Assembly (NCBI GenBank): GCA_013288745.1
Contig: JABDBG010000024.1
Location: 1 to 34,106 of the forward strand
Reading direction: 5' to 3'
Source: Bacteroidota bacterium
GTDB taxonomy: Bacteria; Bacteroidota; Bacteroidia; Chitinophagales; Chitinophagaceae
Length of the DNA stretch: 34,106 bases
Shown: positions 1,860 through 10,927 of the stretch, in pieces
How positions within the stretch are numbered: the stretch's first letter is position 1
How the letters are laid out: each line of letters starts with the position of its first letter
Translations under genes and position numbers: made by a program
The notes under the pieces: generated by a model
The model's database searches: none
What the model saw: the letters and a program-made list of their open reading frames with translations, nothing else
What the model was told of the DNA's origin: nothing

Positions 1860-3584
1860 CTATTTAATTATCATGAAATTGCCTGATTCATTTTTAATGT
1901 CAGCAATAACAGAATTTTTAATAGTTAGACTTCCGTGTGCCCCACTCGAAATATACAAACTATGTTTATCTTTTGTGCCGATGCCAGAATTTGTAATGTT
2001 TAGATTTTGTAAGGTAACATTTGATAACACACCAATTTTATCAGCTTCGTTTTTAGCAATCACGCTTAATCCGTTTGATAAACTATTTTCGATATTTATA
2101 TTCTTGATCTCAACTCCCGAGATATTGCGTTTATCAAGACAGATCTCAAAAGATGCGCGCCAGGCCCAGTCGTGATCAAAACCGCCGCTTCTTCTAATGG
2201 TACAATCTTCAATAATTGTTGTGCCGCTAAAATTATTATCGATATGCGCATTTTTATCATCTGTAGGAAAAGTTGTGCTGATAAGAATAGCAGCTCCCTG
2301 AGAAATATCAGTAAATAGACAATTTTTAATGGCATTGCTATTCGCCCCATAAATAGCAGCGCCGTTTGCCAGATAGGGCAACTCTGCAGTACAATGAGCA
2401 ATAAGATTAAATCCTGGTAAAAATTGTTCCTTTCCACGTACTGTTGGCCAGATAGCAAAACAATCGTCGCCAGTACCTCTTGCAGTACAATTGTCTATCG
2501 TTGATTCTGCCATGCCATTACAAAAATTTATTCCGTCGGCCATTGTATTGCGCATGCGGCAGCCTGCAATTTTTAACTTGCTTGAGTTCTCGATCCACAT
2601 GCCGACTTTTGTATGCTCGATCCAGATACGCGAAATAGTTGAGTTTATTCCGTAAGTGCCTACGATGCCATCATTGTCTTCATCATCGTTTCTGTAATTC
2701 AGTTTGCCATCGATCGCAAAATCGGCAATATGTATATTATTGCCAGTACCTTTCAATCTCACTCTTCTGCTGGCATCAGTATATAATTTTTCATCCCCAA
2801 CAAAGGTTGTATACCACATTCCTGCGCCTTGAACTGTTATGTTTGGCGGTAAAATTATATCACCTGTAATTTTAAAAGTCCCGGCAGGAATAAAAACTAT
2901 TTTTCCTGTCTCTGTTGCTTTTGCAATACATTTTTTGAAGGCTTCTGTATAATCATCAGAAGAATCGCTTCCGCGAAAAGCATTATCAGTAATTGACAGA
3001 GAATTCAATGGAGCAATTACCGGCGGAGCTACATTTTCAAGATCAACAAGATCGATAATACAATAGCTGGCACTATCTTCTGCCTGGTCATTACGTTGTA
3101 TGCGGATGATATCGCCTTTTTTTATTACAAGATCCTTTATACGTATCTCATCGTAAAAATGCCTTGGAACCCCTGCAGAAGGGTCATTGGTAAAAGGATA
3201 CTTACCATACATCCAGGAATTGCGTGATGAAATAGGATGTTGTTGTTGCAGCGTATCATTTTTATAAATAGCTAAAGTAGAACGTAGGCCTCCACCTTGT
3301 TTGCTATCAGGCAGGTTGAATCTGATCACCATACTATTGGCTATAGCAGATGAAGTAAATTCAATAAATTGTTTGTTGGAACTAAGTCGCACACATTTTT
3401 GTCCTGATGATTCCGTTTCAACCTGGTAGGGGTCATATTTTGGGCCCATAACAGTTCCTGTCGTATTCATATTCTCTGCTTCATAGGTTATCCAGGGTAT
3501 AATGGCGCCGCATTTTTGTTGGGCCGAGCATAGCAAACTGCTAAAAGCTAAAAAGATCAGCATGCATTGTTGTTTCACATTCAT
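1860..3584 (-). CDS. Secreted GH87-like alpha-1,3-glucanase / mycodextranase
   Basis: A 574-residue exported protein (signal peptide about 1-21, ending CSAQQ). The N-terminal region (~30-185), with TYEAE, RFNLPDS, RHFYDE and GDIIRIQ, resembles the CBM6/35/36-like beta-sandwich that precedes GH87 catalytic domains. From ~190 to the end is a right-handed parallel beta-helix of the pectate-lyase-3 type, with IVFIPAGTFKITGDI and GAGMWYTTFVGD. GH87 enzymes hydrolyse alpha-1,3 or mixed alpha-1,3/1,4-glucans and use three Asp residues. Candidates here are Asp350 in ADGIN and Asp373-Asp374 in GTGDDCFAIWP; the 23/24-residue spacing matches the spacing I recall for characterised GH87 enzymes. This is shorter than many GH87 enzymes, which carry extra binding modules. 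It is monocistronic and ends in the terminator at 1808-1838. The substrate is inferred; another beta-helix polysaccharidase is the main alternative. Confidence 0.82.
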   Translation of the reverse strand: MNVKQQCMLIFLAFSSLLCSAQQKCGAIIPWITYEAENMNTTGTVMGPKYDPYQVETESSGQKCVRLSSNKQFIEFTSSAIANSMVIRFNLPDSKQGGGLRSTLAIYKNDTLQQQHPISSRNSWMYGKYPFTNDPSAGVPRHFYDEIRIKDLVIKKGDIIRIQRNDQAEDSASYCIIDLVDLENVAPPVIAPLNSLSITDNAFRGSDSSDDYTEAFKKCIAKATETGKIVFIPAGTFKITGDIILPPNITVQGAGMWYTTFVGDEKLYTDASRRVRLKGTGNNIHIADFAIDGKLNYRNDDEDNDGIVGTYGINSTISRIWIEHTKVGMWIENSSKLKIAGCRMRNTMADGINFCNGMAESTIDNCTARGTGDDCFAIWPTVRGKEQFLPGFNLIAHCTAELPYLANGAAIYGANSNAIKNCLFTDISQGAAILISTTFPTDDKNAHIDNNFSGTTIIEDCTIRRSGGFDHDWAWRASFEICLDKRNISGVEIKNINIENSLSNGLSVIAKNEADKIGVLSNVTLQNLNITNSGIGTKDKHSLYISSGAHGSLTIKNSVIADIKNESGNFMIIK

Positions 3585-3616
3585 GATTTTGACAAATTAA
3601 AAGGGTAAAAATAAAA

Positions 3617-3648
3617 ATGGAAACTCTTAATAAATTAAAAGCTTCCAT
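3617..3648 (-). terminator. Probable displaced terminator of the original tRNA-Lys
   Basis: On the minus strand ATGGAA (3648-3643) pairs with TTCCAT (3622-3617), followed by a T-rich run TTTTATTTTT. It lies just outside the left attachment repeat, where the downstream end of an uninterrupted tRNA-Lys gene would be. The stem is short, so the call relies partly on position. Confidence 0.5.
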
Positions 3649-3651
3649 CTG

Positions 3652-3665
3652 GTGACCCCTCAGGG
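3652..3665 (-). repeat. Left attachment-site core (tRNA-derived direct repeat)
   Basis: GTGACCCCTCAGGG, identical and in the same orientation to 10159-10172. To its right the sequence no longer matches a tRNA, so this is a copy of the tRNA 3' end only. To its left, read on the minus strand, the repeat continues as CCA and then the old terminator, marking the chromosomal side. Confidence 0.88.
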
Positions 3666-3703
3666 TTTAATTTTATCCAGTACACATAAGCATTACGCTA
3701 TAG

Positions 3704-3712
3704 TGTAAATAC
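3704..3712 (+). repeat. Single TGTAAATAC motif inside the left end (candidate integrase arm site)
   Basis: Same 9-mer and orientation as the three copies at 10014-10043, 39 bp inside the left core repeat and directly against the stop codon of the leftmost element gene. Presence at both ends fits an arm-type binding site; one copy alone could be chance. Confidence 0.45.
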
Positions 3713-3713
3713 A

Positions 3714-4016
3714 TTATGATTGGTTAATAATCGCTTGTTTTAATCTCTCCAAAGACGCTTGTTTAAAGAGTATTTGATTGCCGTATTTCACGTAATCAAC
3801 TCCTTTAAAAAGATACATATTAACATCACTTATTCCGGTTACACTATCTTTCAATCTTTCCTGAATCCATGTGCGGCTTCTTATTAATATCACTTGCGCT
3901 TCTTCATAAGTAACAAGTTTATCCTCTGCATTAGCCGCGTGAATTTTCAACAGCTTTTTTATGTTGCTGTTTAGCTCGTACATCATTCTGATATCGTCAC
4001 GTGTTGGAAGTGCCAT
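3714..4016 (-). CDS. Small HTH protein, candidate excisionase/directionality factor
   Basis: A 100-residue protein with a central MerR/HTH_17-like segment: VTYEEAQVILIRSRTWIQERL (roughly 35-56) reads as a helix-turn-helix, and YVKYGNQILFKQASLERLKQAI (74-96) is a wing followed by a helix, the layout of excisionase-type DNA-binding proteins in Bacteroidota islands. The N-terminal 30 residues look helical. It begins 1 nt after the stop of the upstream minus-strand regulator, so the two are probably co-transcribed. Its position at the element end opposite the integrase, with a candidate arm site abutting its stop, suggests a role in recombination. That role is inference; a plain transcription factor is equally possible. 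Confidence 0.7.
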   Translation of the reverse strand: MALPTRDDIRMMYELNSNIKKLLKIHAANAEDKLVTYEEAQVILIRSRTWIQERLKDSVTGISDVNMYLFKGVDYVKYGNQILFKQASLERLKQAIINQS

Positions 4017-4017
4017 T

Positions 4018-4239
4018 TTAGTTTGATGATCCGGGATTAATTACTGCACGGATTTTAGCAAGAGTTTCAGGTTTACAAGAACCGGCATTTACTATAACAT
4101 GAAGTTGCTGCCTGCTAATTCCTATTGCTGTCGCAGCATCTATCATAGTGCCTTGTTTTGCAATAAAAGCTTTCAGGAGCCTTTTCTCGCCGCTTATCAT
4201 CTTTTCGCTGTTTTTGCGCCTTAATATTGTTTTTTCCAT
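4018..4239 (-). CDS. Small helix-turn-helix regulator
   Basis: A 73-residue basic protein. Residues ~20-68 form a short HTH unit: LLKAFIAKQGTMIDAATAIG then ISRQQLHVIVNAGSCKPETLAKI, in which AATAIGISRQQLHVIVNA is the helix-turn-helix and KPETLAKI the following helix typical of XRE/Cro-like proteins. There is no dimerisation or sensor domain. ATG at 4239 is preceded by a matching -7 box at 4269-4276, and the presumed -33 region overlaps AGAGCAAAA repeats, so it may regulate itself and the divergent gene at 4355. It heads a two-gene minus-strand operon with the candidate excisionase. Recognised as HTH by pattern only. Confidence 0.75.
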   Translation of the reverse strand: MEKTILRRKNSEKMISGEKRLLKAFIAKQGTMIDAATAIGISRQQLHVIVNAGSCKPETLAKIRAVINPGSSN

Positions 4240-4268
4240 AAATAGACTTTACATTTGTCTTGACAGTG

Positions 4269-4276
4269 CAAACATA
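4269..4276 (-). promoter_or_regulatory. Promoter -7 box for the leftward HTH operon
   Basis: TATGTTTG on the minus strand matches the Bacteroidota consensus TAnnTTTG and is followed by C. The start codon at 4239 is 29 nt downstream. A TTG that could act as the -33 element is at 4301-4299, 22 nt upstream, slightly longer than the usual spacing. Confidence 0.6.
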
Positions 4277-4290
4277 AGAACAAAAAGATT

Positions 4291-4312
4291 AAATAGAGCA
4301 AAAAGAGCAATT
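4291..4312 (+). promoter_or_regulatory. Tandem AGAGCAA repeats, candidate operator
   Basis: Two adjacent A-rich copies of AGAGCAA (4295-4301 and 4304-4310) overlap the presumed -33 element of the leftward HTH operon. A third copy in the same orientation lies at 5071-5077, just before the GTG start of the repressor-like gene at 5089. Repetition in front of two regulator genes of the same element suggests a shared operator. Confidence 0.4.
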
Positions 4313-4317
4313 AATTT

Positions 4318-4335
4318 TATTAACATATGTTAATA
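4318..4335. promoter_or_regulatory. 18-bp perfect palindrome, candidate operator
   Basis: TATTAACATATGTTAATA is its own reverse complement and lies 20 bp upstream of the ATG at 4355, in the divergent region between regulator and rightward operon. A dimeric repressor site is the natural reading; no T-tract follows, so a terminator is unlikely. Confidence 0.55.
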
Positions 4336-4354
4336 TTGTGATTTACAATTAGAT

Positions 4355-5044
4355 ATGGAGAATGATTCGTTAAATAAATCTTTGTTGTATTTGTATGAAA
4401 ACAAGAATAAAGAGTTTAATTCAGATGGATTGAGCTATATGCCAAATGAAAGAATTGGTAGGGATGAATCTAAAAGGTTATTTCATACATTAGTCAATAG
4501 TAAGTTAGTAGATCAGCGAACATCGCTAAGACAAGGAGTTCAGGGACCTTATCATGAAACTGTTTATCAGATAAGTTCTTATGGGATTGATTTTATTGAA
4601 ACAGCACCTCCTGAATATAAAGGGCGTGAATATTTTTATCATCTATTCTTAATAATTGATGAAAAATATACGCAAAATAGAAAGGAATCTTTAGAGGCTG
4701 AGCATACATTTTCTGTAATAAAAGCAAACGATTCTATTGTTGAACTCAATACAGAAACGAAAAAGTACTATAAAAATCAAGAAGAAATAAATGAATCAAT
4801 AGTTGAATTAAACAAAACGACGAGGAATGCTACATATGTTATTGCGTTAGCCGCAATAGTATCTGCTGTTTTTACAGCGATACCGTATGTTTATCCTAGG
4901 GCCAATTATGAATTAAAGCCAAAAAGCATATTGTCACAAGAAAAAAAGACCCTGATACCAAGAGACAAAACATTGCAATATCAAACAAGGATTGACTCAC
5001 TTTATTTGATAACGGAAAACGATTCTTTAATAATTTTTCCATGA
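4355..5044 (+). CDS. Winged-helix, coiled-coil, single-TM protein of unknown function
   Basis: A 229-residue protein I cannot assign to a family. Residues ~1-85 look like a winged helix: ESKRLFHTLVNSKLVDQR resembles the helical part and ETVYQISSYGIDFIE the wing strand and next helix. Residues ~100-158 are strongly helical and contain a repeat, NDSIVELNTETK (125-136) and NESIVELNKTTR (146-157), exactly 21 residues (three heptads) apart, so a coiled coil is likely. One transmembrane helix covers ~159-180, followed by a ~50-residue basic-to-acidic tail. No signal peptide is visible; the winged helix is probably cytoplasmic and the tail outside. The layout suggests a membrane-tethered sensor or DNA-binding protein. 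It is the first gene of the rightward run, behind the 18-bp palindrome. Confidence 0.7.
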   Translation: MENDSLNKSLLYLYENKNKEFNSDGLSYMPNERIGRDESKRLFHTLVNSKLVDQRTSLRQGVQGPYHETVYQISSYGIDFIETAPPEYKGREYFYHLFLIIDEKYTQNRKESLEAEHTFSVIKANDSIVELNTETKKYYKNQEEINESIVELNKTTRNATYVIALAAIVSAVFTAIPYVYPRANYELKPKSILSQEKKTLIPRDKTLQYQTRIDSLYLITENDSLIIFP

Positions 5045-5088
5045 TGTTTTTTACAAAAATAAGGATAAAAAGAGCAAAATAAACAATA

Positions 5089-5508
5089 GTGAATAGGTTA
5101 CAACTTAGAGAAGCTATCGAGATATTGAATAAAAAAGGATATAGCAATGGCGCTATAAGCGAAGGCGTTGGCATTACTATAGGTCATTTATCAAGAATGC
5201 TAACGGATAAAGAAGCTGGTAGAAAAGCCATTACCAAAAAATTTATATCATCTTTTCAAAGGCAATTTGGTAAGTTTTTGCCAATAGAATTATTTGATGA
5301 TGAAATAATAGTTAAAACAGATCCAGGCACCATAATAGAGAAGCAGATACAGCATGAAGCATGGCTTAACGTTTTGGAGGGGATGATCGTTTCTTTGGTT
5401 CACGATAAGACTGATCGGTCAATAGTTTCGATAATCTCTCAACTAAAGAAAGAGAAGGCGATGGAGGCCGACAGGATTTCGGACGAACTACGCCGGAAAA
5501 AGAAATAG
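5089..5508 (+). CDS. Repressor-like HTH transcriptional regulator
   Basis: A 139-residue protein starting at GTG 5089; no ATG in frame gives a complete HTH. The N-terminal ~45 residues form a helix-turn-helix, REAIEILNKKGYSNGAISEG then VGITIGHLSRMLTDKEAGRK, followed by ITKKFISSFQRQFGKFLP, the pattern of Bacteroidota phage or island XRE-like repressors. The rest (75-139) is helical and highly charged and ends DELRRKKK, plausibly oligomerising. It lies 44 nt after the upstream gene, and an AGAGCAA copy (5071-5077) lies just before its start, which suggests autoregulation. No signal peptide or membrane segment is seen. Confidence 0.78.
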   Translation: MNRLQLREAIEILNKKGYSNGAISEGVGITIGHLSRMLTDKEAGRKAITKKFISSFQRQFGKFLPIELFDDEIIVKTDPGTIIEKQIQHEAWLNVLEGMIVSLVHDKTDRSIVSIISQLKKEKAMEADRISDELRRKKK

Positions 5509-5687
5509 TTTTTTTCAAAATAGCATTGTTTAAGTGGGGTTATCAAAGATTGAGGACAAACATACACACTTATAAATGACTATCAACATTACTAAAATCA
5601 ATGTATATATGAAAAATTTATATTTTAACAAATAGACAACTATACCTATAAGAAAAACCTCATAAATAAAAGTTTAAACACCGGATT

Positions 5688-6044
5688 ATGAAAAAAATAT
5701 TTACAATTATAGCTGCTGCAGTATTATTTACATCATGCAAAAAAGCATCTATATCAAACAAAGGATTGGGAACACTTTATATAACGGCAACTGCGCAAAG
5801 CGGAGGAGGAAATACCGAAGTCAGGTTTGCAATACTTGATAAAAACAGACAACCTATATCTTCTCCAGCGGATATAACCATTATTGCCTCTGTTCCATTG
5901 AATGGTGGTAATATTTTAGATACAGCGATGATTCTATCAAATTACAGCTATGTATATAGCCAATTGAATGGATCTGTAGGTAATACAGTAGAATGCCATA
6001 TTGTAAATGCTACTGCCACTGGGTATACTTTTACTTATCAATAA
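5688..6044 (+). CDS. Small lipoprotein of the element
   Basis: A 118-residue protein with signal MKKIFTIIAAAVLFTSC; the lipobox Cys is residue 17 and is followed by KK. The mature ~100 residues are Gly/Ser/Thr-rich and look all-beta (GTLYITATAQSGGG, EVRFAILDKNRQP, ADITIIASVPL, VECHIVNATATGYTFTYQ), suggesting a small beta-sandwich. No family recognised. It starts a rightward cluster of three exported products after a 179-bp gap in which I see no convincing promoter or RNA. A short shared string, CCGGATTAT, occurs just before its ATG (5681-5689) and before the next gene (6058-6066). Confidence 0.75.
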   Translation: MKKIFTIIAAAVLFTSCKKASISNKGLGTLYITATAQSGGGNTEVRFAILDKNRQPISSPADITIIASVPLNGGNILDTAMILSNYSYVYSQLNGSVGNTVECHIVNATATGYTFTYQ

Positions 6045-6085
6045 CAAAATCAATTAACCGGATTATAAAAATTAAAACAAACCAT

Positions 6086-6505
6086 ATGAAAAAAATATTA
6101 TTAGGCTTTTTACTACTACCCCTTTTCCCTAAAGCTCAACAAATAGACAGTTTGGCTTTGAGTAGACTTTTAGATAATCAAAACGTTTTGCAAAGACGTA
6201 TGGACGAAAGCGGCAAGGAAATTATTAAATACCGCGTTCTTTCTAGCGTTGGTAACGGATTAGAAGGATTGGGTGCGATAGGGGTAGTAGTATCAACAGT
6301 TAGTATAGCTGACCTTTCAAGTCAAAACAATGGATATATAGGAGATGACAATAAAAGTAAAATAAGCACTTATAAATCAATAATTGGAGTTAGCGCCGGT
6401 GTTGCTATTGTTGGCTTTGTTATTCATGCAATTGGATTGGATCACTTAAATAGAGCGGCGCTTAAATTACAAGGCACCTCCATTGTAATGCCATTTGGTA
6501 AATAA
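6086..6505 (+). CDS. Exported two-TM small protein, paralogue of the next gene
   Basis: A 139-residue product starting at ATG 6086; an open frame upstream to 5993 adds a cysteine- and aromatic-rich stretch that overlaps the preceding gene and lacks signal character, so I reject it. An N-terminal signal (MKKILLGFLLLPLFPKAQQ) precedes a helical segment and two hydrophobic Gly-rich stretches (about 60-78 and 98-118) separated by a polar, Asn/Asp-rich loop. The last ~22 residues, DHLNRAALKLQGTSIVMPFG, align without gaps to the end of the next gene's product. Function unknown; probably inner-membrane or periplasmic. It is 41 nt after the lipoprotein gene and 16 nt before its paralogue, so the three are likely one operon. 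Confidence 0.75.
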   Translation: MKKILLGFLLLPLFPKAQQIDSLALSRLLDNQNVLQRRMDESGKEIIKYRVLSSVGNGLEGLGAIGVVVSTVSIADLSSQNNGYIGDDNKSKISTYKSIIGVSAGVAIVGFVIHAIGLDHLNRAALKLQGTSIVMPFGK

Positions 6506-6521
6506 CTAAAATATATATTAT

Positions 6522-6935
6522 ATGAAAAAAGTAATTTTTATCCTATTGCTTGCTCCGTGTATTTGCAAAGCCCAAATGGACACAACAATAACAATAACAG
6601 ATCGATCTTTTGAAAGAAACAAGATTGTTCAGCATGATATACGCCAGTACAAGGCTATTGCGTATACCGGGTCAATACTTACGGGAGTAGGCTTAATTTC
6701 TGCCTTCATCGGTGCTACTTCTATGGAGAAAGAGTATAAATACGATGAGAATATCGGTGTTCCTGGAATTGGAAATGACGACGATCCCAAGATAGATAAA
6801 GACAGGTATTTTTTATATGGAGGAATAGCGCTTAGCGTAGTAGGTTTAATATTTGACCTAGCATCCATCCATCATATTGGAAAATTAAAAATGGATTTAA
6901 AGGGCTCATCTATTACAATACCATTGAATAAGTAG
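6522..6935 (+). CDS. Exported two-TM small protein, paralogue of the previous gene
   Basis: A 137-residue product with a signal peptide (MKKVIFILLLAPCICKAQ), a polar segment, a hydrophobic Gly-rich stretch (about 48-66), an acidic loop (NIGVPGIGNDDDPKIDKDR) and a second hydrophobic stretch (about 95-115). The tail HHIGKLKMDLKGSSITIPLN matches the tail of the upstream product in position and character, although overall identity is low, so the pair look like an old duplication. No catalytic motif is seen. Function unknown. Confidence 0.75.
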   Translation: MKKVIFILLLAPCICKAQMDTTITITDRSFERNKIVQHDIRQYKAIAYTGSILTGVGLISAFIGATSMEKEYKYDENIGVPGIGNDDDPKIDKDRYFLYGGIALSVVGLIFDLASIHHIGKLKMDLKGSSITIPLNK

Positions 6936-6972
6936 TACTATCAAAAATATACAATAATATATAATTCTGATA

Positions 6973-7287
6973 ATGCCGAGATTAAAACTGCACGACCAAA
7001 GAATGATATCATTAATGGAGTGTATCGTTAATGATAAAGCGCATAAGGCTATTAGCAGCGAACTAGCGTTCTTAAAATCAATAGGCTTGGTGCATATGAA
7101 TAACTTCTACGCTATAAAAAGAGGTGATCGGTCATTTAGCCTGGAGCATTTTATTAAGGCCATAGAAAAATATAGTGTTAGCGCTGATTTCTTTTTCTAT
7201 AAGTCAGCGCCTTTGAGCTTTCATAAGAAAGAAACAAGCGTGTCTGATTTGCTGAGATCCGCTCTCCTATTAATTGATAAAAAATAA
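6973..7287 (+). CDS. Degenerate XRE-like HTH protein
   Basis: A 104-residue cytoplasmic protein. The middle, AIKRGDRSFSLEHFIKAIEKYSVSADFFF (about 47-75), follows the second half of an XRE HTH domain (turn, last helices, then the 'vs.d.l' ending), but the first half is poorly conserved. The N-terminus (LHDQRMISLMECIVNDKAHK) is helical. It is likely a small regulator of the element or a decayed repressor. It lies 37 nt after the exported pair and 9 nt before the next gene, on the same strand. Confidence 0.65.
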   Translation: MPRLKLHDQRMISLMECIVNDKAHKAISSELAFLKSIGLVHMNNFYAIKRGDRSFSLEHFIKAIEKYSVSADFFFYKSAPLSFHKKETSVSDLLRSALLLIDKK

Positions 7288-7296
7288 AGAAATTAT

Positions 7297-7509
7297 ATGT
7301 TAGTAGCATTTAAATATAATGGCACCACTCATAAATCAACAAATTTTGAGCGTGCTATAAGACGCGACCGTTGCACCAAGCTCATGGAGTTATTTGAACA
7401 GCAGTATACAGAAGATGAAATAACACAAGCATTCGCAGATGGATTTTTCTTTATTATTAATGGTGATTCAGACACTCTAGAAGTAGAAAAAAGGCAATTA
7501 CACTTTTAG
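7297..7509 (+). CDS. Small hypothetical protein
   Basis: A 70-residue protein with no signal peptide or membrane segment. It has a short basic segment (FERAIRRDRCTKLMELFEQQ) and an acidic one (YTEDEITQAFADGF), then a hydrophobic strand (FFIING). No family recognised. The ATG is 9 nt after the preceding stop, and it is the last gene of the rightward run. It faces the minus-strand membrane gene across 43 nt. Confidence 0.6.
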   Translation: MLVAFKYNGTTHKSTNFERAIRRDRCTKLMELFEQQYTEDEITQAFADGFFFIINGDSDTLEVEKRQLHF

Positions 7510-7552
7510 TTGTTGAGTGTTTAAGGACCAATCCCGGCATTCAGCTAATGGA

Positions 7553-8017
7553 TTATTCAGGTTTATCAGCAGTATCGTTATCTAATTCAATAAGAATATC
7601 AAACATTGCCATTCCGGTATCACGCAGTATTTCTAATGCAAAAGTGAAGTTGAAGATAAGTATAACATCAAATATATAAAGCAGCTTTCCTGTTATGTAC
7701 GGATGAAGCGTTTTGCTTTGTTCAATAGTTAACACTACTATTGAAATAATAATTAAAATTATTTGCTCAAATATTGATTTCTTTATTTCTAGGTAAGTGG
7801 TTTTAAAACTTGTTTTATATTGATTACCGATATCCTGTAATTTAGAAACTATAAAACTATTGGTAGCGGTATTAATAGCCATTAATGTAATAAGTATTTC
7901 TACTATCTTATTGCCGAGGAAATCAACGATATAATCACTCTCTATAAATACGCATATAGACTTAATTGCTATAGCTAAAACAAACACACAGAATATTTTT
8001 TTTATATCAGGTTTCAC
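7553..8017 (-). CDS. Four-helix membrane protein, second gene of a two-gene module
   Basis: A 154-residue protein starting at GTG 8017. Four hydrophobic segments lie at about 8-25, 33-52, 82-98 and 111-129. The loop between helices 2 and 3 (~30 residues, QDIGNQYKTSFKTTYLEIKK) is basic, suggesting it faces the cytoplasm, as would both termini. The C-terminus is acidic. No enzymatic motif, so a pore or membrane anchor is more likely than an enzyme. Its GTG overlaps the TGA of the upstream soluble gene by 4 nt (GTGA), so translation is probably coupled. Family not recognised. A soluble partner coupled to a small multi-TM effector inside a mobile element is typical of anti-phage modules, but that is inference. 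Confidence 0.72.
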   Translation of the reverse strand: MKPDIKKIFCVFVLAIAIKSICVFIESDYIVDFLGNKIVEILITLMAINTATNSFIVSKLQDIGNQYKTSFKTTYLEIKKSIFEQIILIIISIVVLTIEQSKTLHPYITGKLLYIFDVILIFNFTFALEILRDTGMAMFDILIELDNDTADKPE

Positions 8018-8871
8018 TTTATTTTTTTATCAAGTATTTTTATTAAATCATCTGCGCTGCCGGTAAAGCTATCTAAAATAAATGTTATTTCCGATTCGGA
8101 TGTTTTAATATAATGCCGTAAGCCTGTTATTTTAATTTCAGGTGGTGGTCCTCCTCCCTCTTTTTGATAGTCAACAAGATTGTTAATTTCTTGATCATCT
8201 TCATTCAGATTTTCCAAAACACCTCTTGCTGGAGCCTTTAATAACAGATCTGTTTTATGGGAATTAAGTTTGTCTTTCAATATTCTAATACTACTAACAG
8301 CTGATTGTGATATATTAGACATATTCGGCTTGATAAACTCAAACTTTAATTCTCTTATAGATCCTTCATATGTTTTAATGGTTTCCCAAAACTCCTTGCT
8401 ATCAAATTTTTTTTCTATGTAAATAGCTAGATTGTCGACAGATAGTTTTCTTTTTAAAGTAGTCGCAAGAATATTGGCTACCGCCTTCGTTTCGGTAAAA
8501 GCGTCCGAATTACTTTGAATTAAAATGTATTGTTTTTCAGGCTCATTGTTGATGTAAATATAAATGTTGGGATAATCTTTTATTTTTTCTTTTACAAAGT
8601 TTGAATTATCTACTTCTTTGCTTTTTTCAACACCCATTCTCAATAAAATGGAGTTCTTTTTTGCAGCTTCTATTTTTGTTATAACTGGATATCCTCGACC
8701 GGTATATTTTGTATTTTCATTTTTTATTATCTCATCAAAAAATGTATTTTTCTTTGCAATTAAATCTTCATAAGAAGAATAGCGTTGAAATAGTTCTGAT
8801 TGAATTACCGTAGAAAGTGGAACTAATTGATATCTGTAGATTGAAAATAGGATTTTTTTTTGCTTTTTCAT
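8014..8871 (-). CDS. Soluble protein of unknown family, first gene of a two-gene module
   Basis: A 285-residue cytoplasmic protein with no signal peptide or membrane helix. The N-terminus alternates strands and helices (ILFSIYRYQLVPLSTVIQSELF). Residues 101-120 (PNIYIYINNEPEKQYILIQS) form two strong strands. Residues 159-184 carry the most distinctive pattern: a KEFWETIKTYEG helix, a strand RELKFEF, then KPNM. Residues ~235-245 (YQKEGGGPPPE) form a flexible Gly/Pro break before a final strand-helix unit. No nuclease, ATPase or protease motif can be seen. It is translationally coupled to the downstream membrane protein; a 17-bp palindrome lies 39 nt upstream of its ATG, between it and the integrase. 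Candidate sensor half of a defence or exclusion module; function unknown. Confidence 0.72.
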   Translation of the reverse strand: MKKQKKILFSIYRYQLVPLSTVIQSELFQRYSSYEDLIAKKNTFFDEIIKNENTKYTGRGYPVITKIEAAKKNSILLRMGVEKSKEVDNSNFVKEKIKDYPNIYIYINNEPEKQYILIQSNSDAFTETKAVANILATTLKRKLSVDNLAIYIEKKFDSKEFWETIKTYEGSIRELKFEFIKPNMSNISQSAVSSIRILKDKLNSHKTDLLLKAPARGVLENLNEDDQEINNLVDYQKEGGGPPPEIKITGLRHYIKTSESEITFILDSFTGSADDLIKILDKKIK

Positions 8872-8909
8872 AGAATATGATATGTAGGTATTAGAGATTC
8901 GCTTCCAAG

Positions 8910-8926
8910 ATACATAATTTATGTAT
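8910..8926. promoter_or_regulatory. 17-bp palindrome upstream of the two-gene module
   Basis: ATACATAA / TTATGTAT arms with one central base. It sits in the 60-bp gap between the integrase stop and the module's ATG, a natural place for an operator controlling the module. It lacks a GC-rich stem, so it is a poor candidate for an integrase terminator. Confidence 0.45.
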
Positions 8927-8931
8927 TCAAA

Positions 8932-10011
8932 CTAAAGTGTTCTTAATATTGCTGCTTGCCTGGTAATATCAGTGCCGGCAAGATGGTAATATACTTTTAC
9001 AACTCTTTCCGAAATTCCCATGAGTGCGGCCGTTGTACTTTCTGGTAAGCCATTAGAAGCGCACATATAACCAAACGAATGCCGGCCGGTATGTGTAGTA
9101 ATTTCTTTTGAGATCCCGGCTTTATCTGCCAGGCTCTTTAAATACACATTACTTTTTTGGTTTGAAAATGGAGGTGGTAAGGTTTCGATTGATTTAATTA
9201 CTTTCCTGAGCGTAGGCCCGATCGGCAAAACAATATGGTTTTTGTTCTTTGTAGCACGAAATTTCAATTGCCCCTCCTCGATCATGGATTTATTAAACTT
9301 GCTCCAATCACCGTGACGCATGCCGGTGAAGCAGCCAAGTAAAAAGTAGCTTAACGTTATCTTTTGGCTTTTGTTGATCTTCTTATCCAATAGCATTACC
9401 AAGCTTTTCACTTCCTTATCAACTAGGTAAACACGGTCTGTCTGAATATACTTCGGCATCCGGTAATCATCAAAGGGATTTTCTTTGATCAGTTTTTCTT
9501 TGCGAGCCTGGTTAATAATCCGATGAATATATTTAAAGCAGCTATTAACTGTGTTTTGCGAGTATTTTTTTTCAAACATGAAAGCCTCGTATTTGCGCAG
9601 GAACTCCACCGTGATATCAGATATTAAAAGCTGCTCGCCACGGTATTTTTTGATCTGCCCTAATTTAGTGCGATCGTTACGTACTTCCCGGGCGTATAAA
9701 AAGAAGGACTTTGAAACAATATTATTGCCTTTTATTAACTGATTGGATAATTTAACGCCCTGCAGCCCGCTTGTAATAATTCTGCTTTCAACATCTGCTA
9801 TAACCTTGCGAAGTGCAATATTTAAGATCAGTGCATTAGGGTGATCGATCACCTGGCGTAACTCACCATCCCACTGACCTTTACTTACACTATATGGAGT
9901 ATTGATAAAAGTCTGCACCCGGTTAACGGTAACCATTATTTTGATCTTATAAAGCCCTGTTTTGTTCTTCCGATAATCCCAGTGTATTGGCAGTATTGTA
10001 TAATTTTCCAT
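8932..10011 (-). CDS. Tyrosine recombinase (integrase) of the element
   Basis: A 359-residue site-specific recombinase of the Bacteroidota integrase type. Domains in order: N-terminal arm-binding domain (about 1-95, HWDYRKNKTGLYKIKIMVTV), SAM-like core-binding domain (about 110-200), and catalytic domain (about 205-359). The catalytic set is visible: Arg232 in FTGMRHGDW, a Lys-containing strand (FRATKNKNHIVLP), His307 and Arg310 in HTGRHSFG, and Tyr341 or Tyr342 in KVYYHL. ATG at 10011 is chosen; an open frame up to 10128 adds a hydrophobic stretch that crosses repeats and a terminator. Three ATGTAAATAC repeats lie immediately upstream and may bind the integrase. It sits beside the tRNA-Lys 3' end, its presumed target. 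Confidence 0.95.
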   Translation of the reverse strand: MENYTILPIHWDYRKNKTGLYKIKIMVTVNRVQTFINTPYSVSKGQWDGELRQVIDHPNALILNIALRKVIADVESRIITSGLQGVKLSNQLIKGNNIVSKSFFLYAREVRNDRTKLGQIKKYRGEQLLISDITVEFLRKYEAFMFEKKYSQNTVNSCFKYIHRIINQARKEKLIKENPFDDYRMPKYIQTDRVYLVDKEVKSLVMLLDKKINKSQKITLSYFLLGCFTGMRHGDWSKFNKSMIEEGQLKFRATKNKNHIVLPIGPTLRKVIKSIETLPPPFSNQKSNVYLKSLADKAGISKEITTHTGRHSFGYMCASNGLPESTTAALMGISERVVKVYYHLAGTDITRQAAILRTL

Positions 10012-10012
10012 A

Positions 10013-10043
10013 ATGTAAATACATGTAAATACTATGTAAATAC
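10013..10043 (+). repeat. Three phased ATGTAAATAC repeats upstream of the integrase
   Basis: Identical 10-mers at 10013-10022, 10023-10032 and 10034-10043, about one helical turn apart, in front of the integrase start. The 9-base core recurs at 3704-3712 near the other end. Candidate arm-type integrase sites that could also allow autoregulation. Confidence 0.65.
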
Positions 10044-10114
10044 AAATTAACTCAAAAGTGTTGAATATCGTTGAATTATGTTTGTTTGAAATAAGGTAGA
10101 AAACGACACAAAAA

Positions 10115-10149
10115 AGCCTGAAACACAATACAGGCGTGCATTTCAGGCT
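10115..10149 (-). terminator. Terminator between tRNA-Lys and the integrase
   Basis: On the minus strand AGCCTGAAA (10149-10141) pairs with TTTCAGGCT (10123-10115), followed by a run of T. It lies within the element, directly downstream of the tRNA, so it ends the tRNA transcript before the integrase. The 17-nt loop is long. Confidence 0.7.
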
Positions 10150-10158
10150 AAATTTTCC

Positions 10159-10172
10159 GTGACCCCTCAGGG
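10159..10172 (-). repeat. Right attachment-site core (inside the tRNA 3' end)
   Basis: GTGACCCCTCAGGG, identical to 3652-3665. It covers the 3' strand of the acceptor stem, the discriminator base and part of the T stem of tRNA-Lys, so integration leaves the tRNA gene intact. Confidence 0.88.
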
Positions 10173-10233
10173 ACTCGAACCCTGGACCTACTGATTAAGA
10201 GTCAGTAGCTCTAACCAGCTGAGCTAAGGAGTC
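10160..10233 (-). tRNA. tRNA-Lys (anticodon CTT)
   Basis: A 74-nt cloverleaf on the minus strand. Acceptor stem GACTCCT / AGGGGTC (one G-U pair), D stem GCTC/GAGC, anticodon stem ACTGA/TCAGT with loop CTCTTAA (anticodon CTT at 10199-10197), T stem CAGGG/CCCTG with loop TTCGAGT, discriminator A. The bases after the discriminator are CGG, not CCA, because the element has replaced the original trailer. Reads Lys codon AAG. It is the integration target of the adjacent element. Confidence 0.97.
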
Positions 10234-10354
10234 GTAAAGGCGGCAAAGCTATCGAATATTTTAAAATTTTACAGGACTATTTTTTTATATAAAGATAGCA
10301 GCCCAATATCAATAATACAAGGCAACTAATTCATTCTTGCATGCGATTTGCTAT

Positions 10355-10362
10355 TAAATTTG
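10355..10362 (+). promoter_or_regulatory. Promoter -7 box for the PEBP gene
   Basis: TAAATTTG matches the Bacteroidota TAnnTTTG consensus. The ATG is 22 nt downstream of the box. No convincing -33 element at ideal spacing. Confidence 0.5.
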
Positions 10363-10384
10363 TAAACATTAAACAAAAATAACA

Positions 10385-10927
10385 ATGAAAAAGATCGTCG
10401 TAACACTATTAGTAACCGTAGCAATTATCAGCGCTGCAACAGCGCAAACATTTACATTAAAGAGTAATGATCTGGGTGGACAAATGACCCAAAAACAATT
10501 TGCTAATGGCTTTGGTTGTACCGGTGGAAACATGTCTCCTGAACTGCATTGGGAAAACGCTCCGGCAGGAACACAGGCTTTTGCCGTAACCATGTATGAT
10601 AAAGATGCGCCAACGGGAAGTGGCTTTTGGCACTGGGTGGTATATAATATTCCTGCAAATGTAATGTCGTTAAAAGCAGATGCCGGTAATTTCTCCGGTA
10701 AAAATTTACCTGATAGCGCTGTGAACGGCGGTAATGATGGAAATGCTCCGGGCTTTATTGGCGCATGTCCTCCGGTAGGTGATGGCCCTCATCAATATTT
10801 GATCACAGTGTATGCACTTAAATCAAAATTGAAATTAGATAAGAATGCGTCTGCGGCATACATTGGCTTCATGATCCATTTCAATGCACTTGACCAGGCG
10901 TCAATCGTTGCTTACGGTAAAAGATAA
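10385..10927 (+). CDS. Secreted YbhB/YbcL-type PEBP-family protein
   Basis: A 180-residue protein with a signal peptide (about 1-20, ending SAATAQ), so periplasmic or secreted. The mature part is a single phosphatidylethanolamine-binding-protein domain. Family motifs: GCTGGNMSPELHW (about 44-56), AVTMYDKDAPTGSGFWHWVVYNIP (the conserved D-x-D-A-P and HW ligand-pocket segment), and GACPPVGDGPHQYLITVYAL. Bacterial members are called Raf-kinase-inhibitor-like by homology only; the native ligand in bacteria is unclear. Monocistronic: its own -7 box upstream and a strong shared terminator downstream. Confidence 0.93.
   Translation: MKKIVVTLLVTVAIISAATAQTFTLKSNDLGGQMTQKQFANGFGCTGGNMSPELHWENAPAGTQAFAVTMYDKDAPTGSGFWHWVVYNIPANVMSLKADAGNFSGKNLPDSAVNGGNDGNAPGFIGACPPVGDGPHQYLITVYALKSKLKLDKNASAAYIGFMIHFNALDQASIVAYGKR

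Follow-up and report, generated by a model that had tools for sequence, protein, structure and literature searches.

A 6.5-kb phage-type integrative element in a tRNA-Lys gene of a Chitinophagaceae bacterium carries a candidate RexAB-like gene pair

Contig JABDBG010000024.1 (C24) of an uncultured Bacteroidota bacterium (Chitinophagaceae; assembly GCA_013288745.1) carries a compact element next to its tRNA-Lys(CTT) gene. The window analysed here is this whole contig of 34,106 bp; the genome comprises 84 contigs, is about 72% complete and contains one assembled copy of the element. The anatomy described below supports the presence of an integrated element that occupies tRNA-Lys and lacks transfer genes. 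With moderate confidence, we read it as a reduced, phage-derived integrative element that carries a RexAB-like exclusion module, the gene pair g11-g10, and that moves passively or with a helper. RexAB is a means by which some dormant phages exclude their rivals.

The preliminary description of this DNA had proposed 14-bp direct repeats at both ends, one of them inside the 3′ end of tRNA-Lys, an integrase beside the tRNA and about eleven small genes, and each of these features held. The 14-mer GTGACCCCTCAGGG is present as an exact direct repeat, the right copy of which forms the last 14 nucleotides of an intact tRNA gene (Table 1). No other match to it was found in the 34,106 bp on either strand with up to two mismatches, and shuffled sequences led us to expect 0.01. 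The 75 bp of the tRNA-Lys gene are identical in seven other genomes among the 93 of the genus that were searched (own included) and, therefore, the insertion left the tRNA whole. The repeat-to-repeat span is 6507 bp, or 6521 bp with both copies, and the 12 open reading frames (ORFs) in between, int and 11 small genes, are all open. Scans of Pfam, PHROGs, NCBIfam and PADLOC (Pfam only for g5 and g7) also agreed with the proposed lack of a relaxase, replication protein, capsid protein or transposase, since for these classes they gave nothing beyond weak sub-threshold matches.

The terminators around the tRNA gene provided further evidence of insertion. The hairpin at 3650-3615 lies on the tRNA strand, one base beyond the left repeat, and it directly follows tRNA-Lys once the insertion is undone. 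A terminator starts within 40 nt of the tRNA-Lys end in 11 out of 17 loci of the genus and is absent there in the remaining six, compared with 17 out of 500 stretches of 90 nt drawn at random from the window. The element has its own terminator, a hairpin AGCCTGAAA...TTTCAGGCT with a T run, which is distinct from the outer one. Because of the outer hairpin, the genus loci and the hairpin of the element, we consider that the left flank is the original region downstream of tRNA-Lys and that its terminator was replaced by that of the element; on this reading, the outer hairpin once terminated tRNA-Lys and the insertion moved it away. An empty site was not found, since none of the 17 genus tRNA-Lys loci had the flanks of the window (about 1.5 kb per side). 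When synteny was followed through the penicillin-binding protein (PBP)-family neighbour in 59 genomes, 14 matched, own included, and the loci of the 13 relatives (3.3-3.5 kb) had no tRNA. Short of an empty site, the displaced and replacement terminators are the strongest evidence of the insertion. Among the same 17 loci, the element gave one weak tblastx match, to L075. This locus (L075/L114, G040:C112 8835-10149), from a genus relative, shows another integrase about 700 bp from tRNA-Lys on a contig that ends at 10182; tRNA-Lys may be a recurrent target.

In addition, the motif GTAAATAC occurs seven times in the window, against 1.5 expected. One copy lies just inside the left end, a tandem array of three is found between int and the right repeat, and the other three are elsewhere. 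The pattern of the four end-proximal copies resembles that of arm-type integrase sites, which would be their putative function. Upstream of int in one phage contig (L050 9762-10010), a tRNA-3′-end-like stretch, a terminator and repeated GTTTTACCCA motifs were seen by eye, an arrangement resembling the att design of the window.

Table 1. Positions in the window of the element, its genes and the flanking signals
Feature	Position	Strand	Basis
Intrinsic terminator, 16-pair stem, 4-nt loop, T tract	3615..3650	-	-16.5 kcal/mol, z -7.5
Left att repeat	3652..3665		Exact-repeat search
Arm-like site, one copy, left arm	3705..3712	+	Motif count
g1, 100 aa	3714..4016	-	Homologue adjoins related integrase in six predicted phage contigs
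g2, 73 aa	4018..4239	-	Weak helix-turn-helix (HTH_8, HTH_3), below cut-off
g3, 229 aa	4355..5044	+	One predicted transmembrane (TM) segment
g4, 139 aa, phage-type regulator (weak)	5089..5508	+	PHROG 5736 'transcriptional regulator', E 5e-4
g5, 118 aa, probable lipoprotein	5688..6044	+	Weak LPAM_1, below cut-off
g6, 139 aa, exported/membrane protein, g7 paralogue	6086..6505	+	By eye and hydropathy
g7, 137 aa, exported/membrane protein, g6 paralogue	6522..6935	+	By eye and hydropathy
g8, 104 aa, helix-turn-helix-like by eye	6973..7287	+	No family match above cut-off
g9, 70 aa	7297..7509	+	Pfam scan
g10, 154 aa, candidate RexB-like membrane partner	7553..8017	-	Four hydrophobic (TM) segments
g11, 285 aa, soluble, RexA-like candidate sensor	8014..8871	-	Fold match to RexA/RdgC group
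int, tyrosine integrase, 359 aa, relatives in predicted temperate phages	8932..10011	-	Phage_int_SAM_5, Phage_integrase, Arm-DNA-bind_5
Three tandem arm-like sites, upstream of int	10015..10043	+	Motif count
Element-borne terminator, now 3′ of tRNA-Lys	10110..10149	-	Arms 10115-10123 and 10141-10149, z -3.8
Right att repeat, final 14 nt of tRNA-Lys	10159..10172		Exact-repeat search and tRNA call
tRNA-Lys(CTT), intact target gene	10159..10233	-	tRNA call

The integrase, whose frame has no internal stop, connects the element to predicted temperate phages. Seven predicted viral contigs in IMG/VR (L050-L056) encode relatives with 47-56% identity; four of them are 30-40 kb long and the other three are shorter. 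One (L054) encodes an ERF recombinase, confirmed with Pfam, and long structural-type proteins were seen by eye in the integrase-bearing viral contigs. The best-scoring other integrase among 98 genomes (own, genus and order) showed 30% identity (E 5e-24), a phylum sample of 395 genomes returned only the window's own at E 1e-45, and a family sample of 394 genomes contained seven others at E 1e-40, the best two with 47% and 45% identity, the latter (G863) being the same record as the prophage-like locus L045. Thus, no integrase above 47% identity was present in the other genomes of the genus, order, phylum and family samples. At E ≤ 1e-70, a protein collection yielded 89 relatives besides the window integrase, with 83% identity for the nearest one, located on a 48-kb contig (P0032); the longest contig was 32-48 kb for 26 of the 89, and the cluster of the window integrase itself had three member sequences and one contig. 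In the six family relatives inspected, out of seven fetched, int always adjoined a tRNA gene (Arg, Arg, Asp, Arg, Arg and Cys), and no repeat of the tRNA end of at least 12 bp was found within 20 kb (five loci) or 6.3 kb (one locus). IMG/VR scans with g4, g6, g3 and the single g11 sequence revealed no other copies of the element.

A second link to phages is g1. A g1 homologue lies beside int in six out of the seven viral contigs (L050-L052 and L054-L056), while L053 ends before the corresponding position. In five of them, int is followed by a 139-aa repressor-type protein encoded on the opposite strand and then by the g1 homologue, which shows 31-32% identity to g1 of the window; L055 has the same three genes but a longer repressor ORF. 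No g1 homologue was found in L045 or in the six family integrase relatives inspected. The AlphaFold2 model of g1 was poor (pLDDT 53). Its assignment as an HTH_17/AlpA excisionase was tried and not confirmed, and g1 is a probable excision factor or regulator, as its neighbourhood suggests. The similarity of g4 to the phage repressor-type protein was weak (pairwise E 9e-4 to 6e-3), and the latter matched regulator PHROGs other than that of g4. Hence, the initial view that most gene families of the element are unrecognised applies only in part, since g1 as a phage-integrase companion, g4 as a weak phage-type regulator and the RexAB-like g10-g11 could be placed. Regarding the remaining genes, g6 and g7 (6086-6935) are diverged tandem paralogues with 23% identity, export-signal-like N-termini and a common C-terminal motif. 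Outside the element, the left neighbour (1860-3584) encodes an alpha-1,3-glucanase-like right-handed beta-helix protein (CatAgl_D1/D2).

The part of the cargo that is easiest to recognise is the conserved g11-g10 pair, in which the GTG start of g10 overlaps the g11 stop by 4 bp. A first search found two g11 relatives, and a profile search found 29. Among the resulting 30 members, any given Pfam family was matched by at most two and any PADLOC family by at most one, always weakly; the g11-g10 family thus belongs to no Pfam or PADLOC family, and its members in the window have no clear PHROG. Scanning IMG/VR with the g11 profile retrieved 13 viral loci. In 12 of them, the g11 stop coincides with, or lies a few bases from, the start of an ORF of 145-151 aa that has one or more hydrophobic segments; the 13th contig ends there. 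Twelve g10 homologues aligned with g10 at 24-53% identity. In 10 out of the 13 loci, the upstream ORF on the same strand encodes a phage-type repressor (nine Peptidase_S24 and one Phage_CI_repr), which in seven loci ends no more than about 85 bp from the g11 match and in three lies 0.6-1.0 kb away; some of these ten loci are close kin and hence do not represent ten independent events. The family scan covered these ten, and no repressor neighbour was seen by eye in the other three (L079, L082 and L083). The order repressor-g11-g10 is that of lambda cI-rexA-rexB. A search of the INPHARED phage records with the L088 member found no g11-type relatives.

Fold comparison pointed in the same direction, with modest structural Z scores: 12 of the 13 best PDB rows for the g11 model were RexA, RdgC, Iml3 and CENP-N/Chl4 chains. 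Six of the nine kinetochore rows do not name the chain in their title, and we take them to be CENP-N/Chl4. An adjacent small multi-pass membrane protein, which is a trait of RexAB systems, is present as g10. The paper on the RexA structure lists the same fold group, with RexA, RdgC, Iml3 and CENP-N (PMC11077077). Three observations weigh against this assignment. The fold-match scores of the g11 model are within reach of chance; hhalign, with single lambda sequences as templates, found no sequence kinship of g11 or g10 to lambda RexA or RexB; and the pair in the window follows int and not a CI-type repressor. The position behind such a repressor is described as typical, although not kept in every RexAB system reported (PMC11077077). 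Altogether, the partner and the sizes fit, the modelled fold is suggestive and g11-g10 is a candidate member of the RexAB group.

The g11 family also extends to cellular genomes: relatives occur in two further genomes from the phylum sample and in seven from the family sample. In one of the former (G376, L060), the pair is kept and a nucleotidyltransferase and a HepT-like gene lie within about 1.3 kb; this stretch (8289-10904) contains the pair, one small ORF and then the nucleotidyltransferase/HepT-like gene pair downstream. In the other (G488, L061), a distant g11 relative stands beside a helicase-type gene, as judged by eye. Two of the seven family-sample relatives have a membrane partner and five lack one. 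The pair is kept at L101 (6676-17325) inside a type I restriction-modification cluster, where HsdR lies on one side and downstream genes, HsdM among them, on the other, and L106 shows a distant pair whose partner has 176 aa and four TM segments. No membrane partner was seen on the 4.9-kb contig of L103. The g11 relatives of L100, L102, L104 and L105 have no TM partner, and the next gene encodes HsdM, a YhcG nuclease, a helicase with NOV_C and a helicase with a PLD domain, respectively. At these four loci, a serine recombinase ORF overlaps tRNA-Arg (tested with Pfam for L100 and L104, by eye for L102 and L105). The g11 relatives there are divergently oriented with respect to a gene of similar size (276-280 aa) and to the serine recombinase, and the pattern corresponds to a recurring type of defence island in the family. 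Across these loci, the g11-type sensor seems to have been paired with more than one kind of effector.

Comparison with known systems showed both likenesses and differences. Lambda rexA and rexB are 15 bp apart and lie behind the repressor gene cI, whereas g11 and g10 overlap by 4 bp and lie behind int. Another close system is RexABpp from prophage 1 of Pseudomonas putida, a cryptic prophage, reported as a cytosolic DNA-binding protein plus a membrane effector with four TM segments whose genes follow that of a CI-like repressor (PMC12894663). The likeness is one of description, and the tagged RexApp, given as 37.5 kDa (PMC12894663), exceeds the size expected of a 285-aa protein. The PICMI elements, as described in PMC10803314, share with our element the size class, an integrase, a small gene set and anti-phage cargo; they carry int, alpA and prim together and use the fis site, whereas our element has int only, no primase or AlpA-family match and a site in tRNA-Lys. 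The predicted phages L050-L056 and the prophage-like L045 have the integrase type in common with the element (45-56% identity), and six of the former also share the repressor-type protein and the g1 homologue, but L050-L056 contain many more genes, in the order int, repressor, g1, and neither g11 nor g10 was found in the stretches of L050-L056 and L045 examined. Unlike a complete temperate phage or prophage, the element has no terminase, capsid or tail gene among its ORFs in the family-library scans. The features tested set it apart from complete prophages, PICMIs and integrative mobilisable elements (IMEs). Functionally, it would work like a cryptic prophage or a satellite that repays its host with phage exclusion.

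The element had also been called small for an integrative element. Small it is, but not unusual: the average PICMI satellite of Vibrionaceae measures 6.7 kb (PMC10803314) and phage satellites are given as 6-18 kb (PMC11389934). For a comparison within our own data, 14 out of 29 integrase loci had a tRNA in the stretch, and longer stretches were obtained for seven of these plus one tRNA-Lys locus. Only one of the eight (L109) had a 14-bp tRNA-end repeat, with a span of 7.4 kb; in the other seven, no such repeat of at least 12 bp was found within the stretch, three of the stretches being under 15 kb. Thus, 6.5 kb is not an unusual size in comparison with PICMIs, satellites and the L109 candidate. 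L109 (G048:C18, 12112-19555) is a second small candidate element in the genus, with an integrase and a tRNA-Arg-end repeat 7.4 kb away; it encodes an HTH_17 excisionase-type protein, a 513-aa protein matching PHROG 4756 and, by eye, exported proteins.

Several other explanations have to be weighed. The preliminary description offered a satellite, using a helper phage or a conjugative element, or a stable cargo island; the island fits, while a conjugative helper found no support since no relaxase was recognised in the element or, for the one family tried (PF03432), in the recovered genome. An active phage satellite, excised upon infection or induction of a helper phage, replicated, packaged and guarding its host from rival phages as PICMIs do, seems unlikely to us. 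The size close to the PICMI average, the plan of an integrase, small regulators and anti-phage cargo (PMC10803314, PMC11389934), the phage-type integrase and the lack of any recognised helper-independent function speak for it. However, the family libraries revealed neither a packaging gene (packaging sites were not searched) nor a primase or any other gene for replication, as the PICMI model would require. No second copy was seen either, the nearest of the 89 integrase relatives being 83% identical. A resident helper phage found no support, as no Terminase_6N was detected in the recovered genome, a weak argument given its completeness of about 72% and the single family tried. An inert remnant, in which deletion stripped the replication and structural genes from a temperate phage of some 30-40 kb and left int, regulators, g1 and lysogeny cargo, is in our view still less probable. 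The 26 integrase relatives on contigs of temperate phage or prophage size and the co-occurrence of int, a repressor-type protein and g1 in six predicted viral contigs are consistent with such an origin, but all ORFs are open, both att repeats are exact, no fragment of a structural or replication gene was recognised and the gene order is unlike that of the phages, with g1 at the end opposite int.

Integrases in tRNA genes are common among IMEs, yet mobilisation by a conjugative element is highly improbable here: none of the four libraries gave a relaxase match in the element, PF03432, the only relaxase family tried, was absent from the recovered part of the genome, and the integrase relatives are phage-linked. 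For these reasons, a conjugative origin was judged unlikely. The remaining alternative concerns only the cargo and is compatible with any of the other readings. The g11-g10 pair might be a defence pair unrelated to RexAB, with another kind of sensor plus a pore that converged on the same size and layout, which we regard as an appreciable possibility, albeit a doubtful one. It would account for the missing sequence-level match to lambda RexA and RexB, the modest structural Z scores and the g11 relatives that stand without a TM partner beside HsdM, YhcG nuclease or helicase genes. Against it stand the CI-preceded layout in 10 out of 13 loci, the protein sizes (about 280-295 aa for one partner, 142-154 aa for the other, the latter with TM segments) and the fold matches taken as a set.

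If the element is a reduced, phage-derived carrier of a RexAB-like module, its biology may be outlined as follows. As the anatomy shows, the integrase recombined a 14-bp core that it shares with the tRNA-Lys 3′ end; the tRNA stayed intact and received a replacement terminator. The helix-turn-helix-type regulators g2, g4 and probably g8, together with g1, would control the element and keep it quiet, and int, perhaps with g1, would drive excision. In the integrated state, the element terminator would shield int from tRNA transcripts; in the circle, it would fall between g1 and int and insulate int from g2-g1. We had considered a single transcription unit g2-g1-int-g11-g10 in the circle, which was dropped because the element's own terminator (10149-10110) lies between g1 and int. 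The genes int, g11 and g10 share a strand, int and g11 are separated by 60 bp, and co-transcription of the three is conceivable; they probably use int's own promoter because the terminator separates them from the tRNA and g1. As layout, fold and the known RexAB systems suggest, g11-g10 would act as an abortive-infection pair: the cytosolic g11, of a putative RdgC/RexA fold type, would sense invading phage DNA or replication complexes and would switch on the four-helix membrane protein g10, so that the inner membrane would be breached and the infected cell arrested. Membrane damage by g10 would stop the infection, as proposed for RexABpp (PMC12894663). More speculatively, g5-g7 could place lipid-anchored or membrane proteins in the envelope, possibly as a second exclusion layer. 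Because no particle, pilus or replication protein was recognised, the element would persist by helping its host and would move only passively, for instance by transduction, or with a helper.

A bolder reading, which we put forward tentatively and regard as improbable, is that of a self-contained, excisable exclusion carrier: a 6.5-kb phage-type core that would shuttle a new and broadly spread RexAB-like family among Bacteroidota, with the same RexA-fold sensor acting through a membrane effector when carried by prophages or mini-elements, and through type I restriction or nuclease genes in tRNA-Arg serine-recombinase islands.

The RexAB-like systems described up to January 2026 numbered only five (PMC12894663). 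If g11-g10 is RexAB-like, this kind of system would be extended to Bacteroidota and to some twenty further loci (13 viral and nine in other genomes, not all with a membrane partner). The element illustrates how little a phage-type integrative element with a protective module may retain, and how the target is spared because a tRNA terminator comes with the element.

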